Assembly: GCA_029688955.1 (NCBI GenBank)
Contig: JARUKZ010000013.1
Span: 44,681-108,680, forward strand
Length of the DNA stretch: 64,000 nt
Direction of reading: 5' to 3'
Origin: Chitinispirillales bacterium ANBcel5
GTDB lineage: Bacteria > Fibrobacterota > Chitinivibrionia > Chitinivibrionales > Chitinispirillaceae
In this document: positions 43,501 through 45,219 of the stretch, one piece after another
Position numbering within the stretch: the stretch's first letter is position 1
Layout of the letters: the number at the start of each line of letters is the position of its first letter
Translations under genes and position numbers: made by a program
Notes under the pieces: model-generated
Seen by the model: the letters and a program-made list of their open reading frames with translations, nothing else
Database searches by the model: none
What the model was told of the DNA's origin: nothing

Positions 43501-43754
43501 GCGTCAGGGCGTTCTTTAGCGATTATTCGTTCGAGAGATTCAATGTTAAGTGGCTCAATATAGGTTGCATCAGCTATTGTGGGGTCGGTCATAATGGTCG
43601 CCGGATTTGAATTAACCAGCACAATTTCATAACCAAGAGATCTAAGGGCCTTACAGGCCTGGGTGCCAGAATAGTCAAACTCACAAGCCTGGCCAATAAT
43701 TATCGGTCCTGAACCAATAATAAGAACTTTTTTTATGTCTTTACGCTTGGGCAT
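40509..43754 (-). CDS. carB: Second carbamoyl-phosphate synthase large subunit (divergent CarB paralogue)
   Basis: This is full-length CarB (1081 aa) with both ATP-grasp halves and the C-terminal MGS-like allosteric domain. Key residues are kept: EINPRTSRSSALASKATGFP in the first half and EANPRASRTVPLVSK in the second, plus RPAYTMGG/RPSYVLGG and THTGDS/IHSGDS. It differs from the upstream carB in type: YWKGVTLDQYEPSGDY and VVKFARWAFEKF replace the E. coli-like ASFEP and KIPRFTFEKF. From memory this second type also occurs in Bacteroidetes. It overlaps the purF-like gene by 14 bases. Whether it pairs with CarA or has another job is unknown. Confidence 0.88.
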   Translation of the reverse strand: MPKRKDIKKVLIIGSGPIIIGQACEFDYSGTQACKALRSLGYEIVLVNSNPATIMTDPTIADATYIEPLNIESLERIIAKERPDALLPNLGGQSGLNLSLQLENEGVLKKYGVKIIGVDVEAIQRGEDRIIFKEMMENLGIDMPKSEAVYSVDEALRVAGELGYPVVVRPAYTMGGTGGGLVYNVEELKTVAGRGLAASMINQVLIEESVLGWEELELEIVRDSKGKMITVCFIENVDPMGTHTGDSFCTAPMLTVSDQLQKRLQKHAYDIVESVKVIGGTNVQFAHDPVTDRITVIEINPRTSRSSALASKATGFPIALISAKLAVGLTLDEIPYWKGVTLDQYEPSGDYIVVKFARWAFEKFKGSHDKLGTQMKAVGEVMSIGKTYKEAFQKAIRSLENSRYGLGFAKNFNTLPVEELLNMLKEPSSERHFIMYEALRNGASIDQIHAITKVKQWFIQEMKELVDFEESFLSGKTLESITKEQLTQAKEWGFSDRYLAKLTNSSENAVREKCTSLAIARGWDCVNVSGVETPASYYYSSTNTSQQLEISKKPKVMILGGGPNRIGQGIEFDYCCVHAAFALRDLGYETVMVNCNPETVSTDYDTSDRLYFEPLTLENVLNIYNAEKPDGVVVQFGGQTPLNLANELAEAGVKILGTPPDIIDLAEDRDRFDQMMKRLNIPMPPSGMAVSQEEALSVAESIGYPVMVRPSYVLGGRGMEIVHDDDMLKKYMDLAVDVTPERPILIDKFLENAIEAEADALCDGEDVFVPSVMEHIEQAGIHSGDSACVIPPVSIKPELIDKICEYTKSIAKELKVIGLMNMQYAIAGDTVYVIEANPRASRTVPLVSKVCNLNMAKIATELMMGKKIKDLELKKEPIEHYGVKEAVFPFHMFPEVDPVLGPEMRSTGEVLGIDKQFGLAFFKAQEGANQALPIEGKVLISVSGSESTDIDVLGKKFLEMGFGIVATRGTHLHLSSKGIESQQVNKLHEGRPNILDMITNGEIQLIINTPVGKTSQYDDSYIRKAAVKHKIPYITTLAAAHAAVNGISERKNKVVNARSLQEYQNREQADNAQKDDILETV

Positions 43755-45219
43755 GATTTAATACCGCCTTTCCAGCCTTTGAAGTAGTTTTATTATTACA
43801 CGTCTTATTTCCATTTTCACATCCGGTCCAACAGTAGGTGCAGAGATTTTCTGCAGGGATGTTTATAGCCTCAATCATGTCGTCAAGACGCTGATATTTA
43901 AGGCTTGTTAAATTCATCTTTTTTCGAATTGTTTCTATCATCAAATGGTGGCGATCGGACTTTTCATCGGTATAATCTTCAATACGGTCTACCTTGCCAC
44001 CTTCGATCTCTGTGATCACTTTTCTTGTTATAAACTCCATCTCAGATTTGGAGCGTGAGAAATTAAGGTACTTACATCCAAAAAGAATAGGAGGACAGGC
44101 CAGTCGCATATGGATTTCTTTGGCATTGTAATTATAGATGCGCTGTAATGTATCCTTTAGTTGAGTTCCTCTAACAATCGAATCATCACAGAACAGGATC
44201 GATTTGTTGCTTGTGAGTCGTTTTATAGGAATCAGTTTCATCTTGGCAACCAATTCACGCACAGACTGATTCTGAGGCATAAAGCTACGGGCCCATGTTG
44301 GAGTATATTTTACAAAGGGTCTGCTATAGGGGATTCGTGCTTTTTGGGCATATCCAAGGGCGTGTGCAATACCTGAATCAGGTATTCCGGCAGCAAAATC
44401 AACATCGATATTATCTCTTTGGGCAAGTGCTGCACCACAACGGTATCTTGAGTGCTCTACGTTTATCCCTTCATAGTCTGATGCTGGATAGCCATAGTAG
44501 ATCCACAAGAAAGAACACATTTGCATCTGATTGCCGGGTTTAACTTTTTGCTCAACACCATCAGGAGAGATAAAGACCACTTCACCTGGTCCAAGCTCAT
44601 AATATTCTTCATAGCCAAGATTTGAAAAGGCGCAGCTTTCCATGGTTACTGCGTACCCGTTCTCACCTTTTCCGATCATAACAGGGGTACGGCCAAGCTT
44701 GTCTCTTGCTGCATAAATTCCCTTTTGAGTGAGAATAAGCATCGATGAGGAGCCTTCAATAAGATTGTGGGCGTTTACAATTCCCTCTTCAAAACTTTCC
44801 TGCTGATTAATGAGCATAGCGGTAAGCTCAGTAGGATTCAATTCATTGCCGCTCATTTCTGAAAAATGAACGAATCTCCTGTCGAAAGCTTTTTGGGCAA
44901 GGAGGGAAAGATTGTGAACATGGCCAACAGTAATAATACCATACGTACCAAGGTGTGATCCAATGATCAAGGGCTGATCTTCATAGTCACTAATAACGCC
45001 TATACCATATTTTCCACTAAGCTTGGAGAGGTCGCTGTCAAATTTACTTCTGAACTGAGCGTTGGATATATCATGGATCACTCTTGAATGTTGTTCCCCA
45101 TCGCAAACAACAAGCCCGGCCCTGCGGGTGCCGAGGTGGCTGTGATAATCAGTTCCGTAGAAAAGGTGCGTTATACATTCTTCCTCTGTTTCTGAAATAA
45201 CTCCGAAAAAACCGCTCAT
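43741..45219 (-). CDS. PurF-like amidophosphoribosyltransferase lacking the glutaminase Cys
   Basis: This 492-residue protein has a class II glutamine amidotransferase-like N-half and a PRTase C-half. The PRPP loop ILFCDDSIVRGTQ (about 342-354) and the Fe-S cluster cysteines (MQMC near 233, FGCKY near 383, CTYC near 462) are present as in the B. subtilis-type enzyme. The N-terminus is MSGFFGV, not MCGIVG: the nucleophile is Ser. The start is certain, since GGGAGAT precedes the ATG. The PRTase may use free ammonia or ammonia from a partner. From memory, Bacteroidetes have a related protein starting MGGFFG near car genes. It lies 20 bases after the UPF0371 gene. Confidence 0.85.
   Translation of the reverse strand: MSGFFGVISETEEECITHLFYGTDYHSHLGTRRAGLVVCDGEQHSRVIHDISNAQFRSKFDSDLSKLSGKYGIGVISDYEDQPLIIGSHLGTYGIITVGHVHNLSLLAQKAFDRRFVHFSEMSGNELNPTELTAMLINQQESFEEGIVNAHNLIEGSSSMLILTQKGIYAARDKLGRTPVMIGKGENGYAVTMESCAFSNLGYEEYYELGPGEVVFISPDGVEQKVKPGNQMQMCSFLWIYYGYPASDYEGINVEHSRYRCGAALAQRDNIDVDFAAGIPDSGIAHALGYAQKARIPYSRPFVKYTPTWARSFMPQNQSVRELVAKMKLIPIKRLTSNKSILFCDDSIVRGTQLKDTLQRIYNYNAKEIHMRLACPPILFGCKYLNFSRSKSEMEFITRKVITEIEGGKVDRIEDYTDEKSDRHHLMIETIRKKMNLTSLKYQRLDDMIEAINIPAENLCTYCWTGCENGNKTCNNKTTSKAGKAVLNHAQA

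Follow-up and report, generated by a model that had tools for sequence, protein, structure and literature searches.

PurF commits PRPP to the purine pathway, and descriptions of the enzyme have it depend on glutamine. In class-II amidotransferases, the amine at the N-terminus of Cys1 is put to use, PurD acts on phosphoribosylamine, and ammonia-using counterparts of other amidotransferases exist (AsnA, GuaA without a GATase domain, CPS I). In E. coli PurF, exchange of Cys1 for Ala or Ser led to loss of glutamine use, with use of ammonia still being possible (PMC3261824). For PurF' of Crenarchaeota, the same paper proposed an ammonia-dependent function in 2011 and left it for experiment; each crenarchaeote studied had a single PurF' beside a single Cys-bearing PurF, with Ala or Val in many of the PurF' proteins (PMC3261824). 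In Salmonella, PurF-independent routes reportedly gave too little phosphoribosylamine for purine needs (PMC3485032).

The window analyzed here is a stretch of 64,000 nucleotides from Chitinispirillales bacterium ANBcel5 (Fibrobacterota). Its minus strand encodes a PurF-like protein of 492 aa without the N-terminal Cys, named PurFL here, in a frame running from 45219 down to 43741 (43741..45219), with the motif AGGGAGA preceding the ATG and an N-terminus of MSGFFG. Codon 2 (45214..45216, minus strand) is AGC, and the resulting Ser was matched to Cys1, the nucleophile of PurF, by sequence, by alignment with 14 Cys-bearing PurF rows and by structural alignments, which start with model residue 2 against residue 1 of 1ao0, 1gph and 1ecf. 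The PRPP loop (DDSIVRGTQ, residues 345-353, 44161..44187) and the predicted Fe-S ligands Cys235 (44515..44517), Cys382 (44074..44076), Cys460 and Cys463 (CTYC, 43831..43842) were located on the same strand; Cys235 and Cys382 were kept in 232/232 family rows, and the CTYC cysteines in 230/232 each. The original prediction had described both the exchange of the nucleophile for Ser and an intact PRPP loop with all Fe-S cysteines, and both were borne out, with the refinement that the family norm is Gly, not Ser.

Against TIGR01134 (purF equivalog), PurFL scored 185.6 bits, below the curated cut-off of 350 bits, and its score against Pfam GATase_7 was also under the cut-off. Features of the PurF equivalog present in PurFL were the PRPP loop (DDSIVRGTQ for DDSIVRGTT), B. 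subtilis-type Fe-S cysteines and the two-domain fold, as seen in a structure model; absent were the N-terminal Cys, the glutamine-binding residues and a score reaching 350 bits. The earlier description of the glutaminase domain as still recognizable held for the fold by structure comparison but not for the site, where the glutamine-binding residues were also gone. By sequence, the solved relatives of PurFL were canonical PurFs, and a search of the PDB with a family profile returned PurFs and, weakly, GlmS, with no closer relative. Fold matches of the model included beta-lactam synthetase and carbapenam synthetase, which are Cys-less relatives of AsnB.

For the main alignment, 232 PurFL family rows were compared with the 14 Cys-bearing PurF rows (two pairs of which were identical; rows in general are not all independent), and rows that shared their initial 400 letters were collapsed into one. 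Residue 2 was Gly in 213 of the 232 family rows, Ser in 19 and Cys in none. A set of 195 rows limited by length gave Gly 176 and Ser 19, and the 334 clear-start rows out of 354 (20 with an extended or odd start were left out) gave G 313, S 19, R 1 and A 1. The remaining glutaminase-site residues, numbered as in E. coli PurF and assigned by motif, were also replaced: Arg26 by Leu in 232/232 rows, Asn101 by Val, Ile or Leu in 232/232, and Asp127 by Pro (175), Gln (24), Ser (17), Ala (12) or Thr (2), with 2 of the 232 rows not displayed, while Arg73 and Tyr74 were deleted in 232/232. Cys1, Arg26, Arg73/Tyr74, Asn101 and Asp127 were all kept in 14/14 Cys-bearing rows. The family retained PDSG, the Fe-S cysteines and, in nearly all rows, DDSIVRGT, and gained conserved motifs of its own: DYxxHLG; TPTWxRSF, with near-invariant positions, where the flexible loop that covers the active site reads YxxRTF in PurF; and RGTQ in the PRPP loop, the last Thr of the PurF loop being Gln in 232/232 rows.

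A protein search returned at least 7996 relatives, which were all of its scored candidates, and 7997 of 8000 scored protein clusters, the candidate maximum of the search and so a lower bound, passed E 1e-150 to one family member. The best 120 matches included Chitinispirillia, Fibrobacter, Latescibacterota, Kiritimatiellae, Desulfobacterales and Acidobacteriota; a scan of genome contigs gave 80 PurFL loci and added Bacteroidales, Prevotellaceae, Oscillospiraceae, Planctomycetota, Lokiarchaeia and a Bathyarchaeia-labelled MAG. Among the matches listed, this large family is named amidophosphoribosyltransferase wherever the source names its proteins, yet it is without the glutaminase site. In a tree of 41 family and 14 canonical rows, PurFL lay on one side of a single branch (support 100/100) with a stem of 3.9 changes per column; the row for a long-form PurF (see below) also had a very long branch. 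PurFL is an old family that is sister to PurF and has no Cys at the nucleophile position, with members in several phyla of Bacteria and in Lokiarchaeia MAGs. In two of the latter (L011, L014), PurFL follows hisF-like and hisH-like genes and faces a canonical purF on the opposite strand.

Gene content was analyzed across 197 genomes (completeness setting 90%) from the order of the Oscillospiraceae locus L036, called Oscillospirales here. A PurF/PurFL match was obtained in 187 and neither in 10; by hand count, 109 carried PurFL, 50 of these had no other match, and 78 had the canonical type only. In the 59 genomes with both, the second match was taken as canonical PurF from the matches listed. 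A "truePurF" flag in L036 most likely marks the GlmS gene there. A Fisher test on the hand counts (109 with PurFL, 88 without), which ignores kinship among the genomes, gave p 8.8e-8. No TIGR01134 match over the cut-off was found in the 50 PurFL-only and 10 neither-type genomes (0/60), and no Bacteroidota long-form PurF at E 1e-15 in the 50; a second match in G281 in the TIGR01134 search, a 620-aa frame with 119 bits, was discounted as it looks like GlmS. purD was found in 48/50 PurFL-only genomes (one partial) vs. 5/10 of those with neither protein, and lay within 8 kb of PurFL in 34/50. The two PurFL-only genomes without purD and the five neither-type genomes with it represent a background of missed genes or unknown routes.

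Neighborhoods were compared at 20 loci of the order, 5 picked for an adjacent canonical purF and 15 from 15 of the 50 PurFL-only genomes. Three or more pur genes were present within 6 kb of PurFL in 18/20 (13/15 PurFL-only, 5/5 purF-adjacent); neighbors were counted by tblastn, and the counts are lower bounds as flanks end at contig ends. All 13 PurFL-only clusters contained purE, purN, purH and purD, with purM in 12 and purC in 7. In L151, the single operon annotated gene by gene, the order was purE, a purC-like gene (below the purC cut-off), PurFL, purM, purN, IMP cyclohydrolase, AICAR formyltransferase, purD and purL; by eye, genes resembling guaB and pyrimidine genes precede it. In a sixteenth genome, G145 (L081), PurFL was inside a pur cluster and there was no PurF match over the cut-off.

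Within Fibrobacterota, seven genomes had PurFL only (G003, 100% complete; G012, 88%; G053, 98%; G072, 99%; G011, 86%; G018, 89%; G020, 92%): neither canonical nor long-form PurF was found in any of the seven, and purD and purM were present in 7/7. By hand count of the 75 genomes that were at least 95% complete, 70 had PurF over the cut-off, two had it in pieces (G038, G078) and three were PurFL-only, while PurFL was present in 45/75 at the threshold used. Most PurFL-bearing genomes of this phylum also have PurF, and loss of PurF in Fibrobacterota was set aside as statistical proof, being weak alone with just 3/75 PurFL-only. PurF of the Bacteroidota type is divergent, ~600 aa long and low-scoring with TIGR01134, and is easily overlooked; one at L131:274-2067 (HECGVAMIRLL) had 151 bits, and in other such genomes it was missed at E 1e-40. 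With one long-form PurF as the query, 14 genomes were tested (13 with Bacteroidota-type labels, and L075, labelled Paenibacillus). The long form was found in 8/14, which rules out PurFL-only status for all Bacteroidota; the other six, all Bacteroidales, were PurFL-only, with purD in 6/6. Five further genomes (G110, G121, G128, G139, G145) had PurFL as the sole match in a search that did not cover the long form, and purD was present in 4/5. Genomes reached via loci carry no completeness figure and single absences are weak, so the PurFL-only argument rests on recurrence in three phyla.

Given the purine-operon genomes in which PurFL, lacking Cys and glutamine pocket, is the only detectable PurF, together with the ammonia use of Cys1-exchanged E. 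coli PurF and the insufficient PurF-independent routes in Salmonella, the best reading is that PurFL is probably an ammonia-dependent PRPP aminotransferase (PRPP + free NH3 -> 5-phosphoribosylamine) that fills the purF slot. We infer phosphoribosylamine as the product because of the purF-slot position and the lack of any other detectable PurF, and free ammonia as the nitrogen source because the glutaminase site is absent. No glutamine would have to be hydrolyzed for NH3 to arrive at the phosphoribosyltransferase site, and the old glutaminase domain may have a structural or regulatory role. The original interpretation was partly supported and sharpened, its ammonia-dependent PRPP enzyme being the best-supported account. 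The suggested check for a second, Cys-bearing purF was positive: the window genome carries a canonical PurF (MAETMENSPREK-CGIFG, 511.8 bits to TIGR01134) on another contig. The window copy of PurFL sits outside any purine operon and has 51% identity to the operon copy of L081; because of this non-purine locus and the normal PurF in the genome, transfer of function to it rests on homology. PurFL in the window organism would be a second, glutamine-sparing isozyme beside the normal Cys-PurF, and such an ammonia-using role is probable. Taken over the family, PurFL appears to be a widespread, old PurF variant, standing in for PurF in many genomes and being a probable second isozyme in the window organism.

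In the window, PurFL is part of a minus-strand run of carA, carB1, a DUF1846 gene, PurFL and carB2, in which no gap exceeds 45 bases. carA (50144..51274), with a class-I glutaminase domain by profile matches, and carB1 (46803..50108, profile match) are followed by the DUF1846 gene (45240..46802, PRK13663 equivalog; TTG start at 46802, ATG at 46757), 20 bases upstream of PurFL, and by carB2 (40509..43754), identified by profile and tree, whose first 14 bases coincide with the end of PurFL. The run is most simply one predicted operon, and PurFL is probably expressed with the carbamoyl-phosphate synthase genes. It agrees with the cluster previously described, with carA (intact glutaminase) and two carB genes all in the same run and the DUF1846 gene in addition. 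Two carB genes of different clades share this run with a single carA. The DUF1846 gene is also directly upstream of PurFL in eight fetched relatives (L112-L119, which overlap in part with the genomes of L003, L004 and L068) and near PurFL in G053 (L129), of another Fibrobacterota family. In Clostridioides difficile, the DUF1846 gene CDR20291_0828 is listed with a strong loss of viability under CRISPRi and without an assigned pathway (PMC12548448).

Car genes were found within 6 kb of PurFL in 9/80 loci (3 Chitinispirillia, 4 desulfobacterial, 1 Oscillospiraceae, 1 Bathyarchaeia-labelled MAG), a lower bound since some contigs are short; most of the 80 had neither car nor pur genes in reach. Separately, 11/19 Fibrobacterota loci were flagged for car, one doubtfully, with some genomes shared with the 80-locus set; carA in L128 was discounted (27% match). 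In a CarB tree, 13 PurFL-linked CarBs and carB2 formed one clade (100/99) that recurs beside PurFL in other phyla, these 13 having 63-79% identity to carB2 and 48-51% to carB1; the second CarB of L113 and the CarB of L126 grouped with carB1, and the CarBs of L145 and L147 formed a third group. The proposed conserved linkage to car genes is real but patchy, found in 9/80 loci and mostly with a separate CarB clade without carA nearby, and it was rejected as a general key to PurFL function, most loci having neither car nor pur neighbors. Bacteroidetes relatives with MGGFFG, as named in the original prediction, do exist, but a car neighbor within 6 kb was found in none of the Bacteroidota loci among the 80, a set in which the genus Bacteroides is absent. 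At L134:10617-18625 (G134; the same place as L036), glutamine synthetase, an ANTAR regulator, PurFL, CarB and a GuaA without a glutaminase domain follow one another in this order, and L064 has PurFL, CarB and such a GuaA. The L036/L134 cluster looks like a nitrogen-regulated, ammonia-using nucleotide set, a fit rather than a proof. As a tentative extension, more speculative than the enzymatic reading itself, many bacteria may have an ammonia-fed nucleotide module of PurFL for purines, the carA-less CarB clade for carbamoyl phosphate and, in some, GuaA without glutaminase for GMP, with the dead domain of PurFL as a nitrogen-responsive gate.

An unlikely alternative is that PurFL makes phosphoribosylamine with ammonia channelled from a separate glutaminase, i.e. 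CarA, a PurL domain or a co-resident canonical PurF. It would suit the shared run with carA in the window, the presence of carA near PurFL in a few relatives, and canonical purF within 6 kb in 3/19 Fibrobacterota loci and next to PurFL at the 5 Oscillospirales loci selected on that criterion. Supply from CarA, as originally suggested, was not supported, carA being found in 0/9 fetched flanks of the car-linked loci among the 80; L151, the operon with full gene annotation, is without a separate glutaminase, the sole glutaminase there being a domain inside PurL, and most of the 80 loci offer neither car nor pur neighbors.

Still less probable is another PRPP-dependent reaction, or a role as a PRPP-sensing regulatory subunit of PurF or carbamoyl-phosphate synthase. 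Changes at near-invariant positions of both the flexible and the PRPP loop could mean other chemistry, many genomes have PurFL and canonical PurF together, and Cys-less relatives may serve other functions, by analogy with the beta-lactam and carbapenam synthetase fold matches. Against this, phosphoribosylamine synthesis would be left unexplained in genomes with purD, PurFL in the purF slot and no detectable PurF, and the "different PRPP-using reaction" that had been offered as an option is disfavored for the same reason. Glutamine-dependent activity via a relocated nucleophile, Cys15 (45175-45177, minus strand), is very improbable: Cys is at this position in 317/322 family rows, but the glutamine-binding residues are replaced throughout the family and class-II amidotransferases use the N-terminal amine of Cys1. 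In the canonical PurF of the same genome, Cys15 is not conserved as such. That PurFL is a pseudogene in decay, or its codon 2 a sequencing error, can be practically dismissed, for although AGC is one base away from TGC, the family alignment contradicts both, with Cys in 0/232 rows and new motifs strongly conserved across phyla, and no error has to be invoked for the Ser.

Literature searches (titles, abstract openings and open-licence full texts) found no account of a bacterial PurFL family, and PurF' as the sole proposal of ammonia dependence for PurF. Compared with PurF (TIGR01134; B. subtilis 1ao0/1gph, E. coli 1ecf), PurFL is without Cys1 and the glutamine-binding residues, has its own flexible loop and forms a separate clade. 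It resembles crenarchaeal PurF' as a Cys-less PurF paralogue near purine genes; by the published description of PurF', it differs in its Gly/Ser rule, its mostly bacterial hosts and in being often the only PurF (PMC3261824). A Cys-bearing PurF accompanies PurF' in each crenarchaeote studied, whereas 50/197 Oscillospirales-order genomes have PurFL without detectable PurF. Mlab_0150 of Methanocorpusculum labreanum shares with the window PurFL the Ser replacing the nucleophile, but is described in the same paper as having arisen from the purF of that organism by comparatively recent duplication, vs. the old, separate PurFL family (PMC3261824). Through PurFL, the 2011 proposal for PurF' becomes an experimentally decidable question. 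If PurFL runs on ammonia, then nitrogen flow, glutamine-analogue sensitivity and metabolic models would have to be revised for many gut and environmental bacteria. As proposed, PurFL would resemble AsnA, GuaA without GATase and CPS I, which belong to other families, in carrying out an amidotransferase-type reaction on ammonia.
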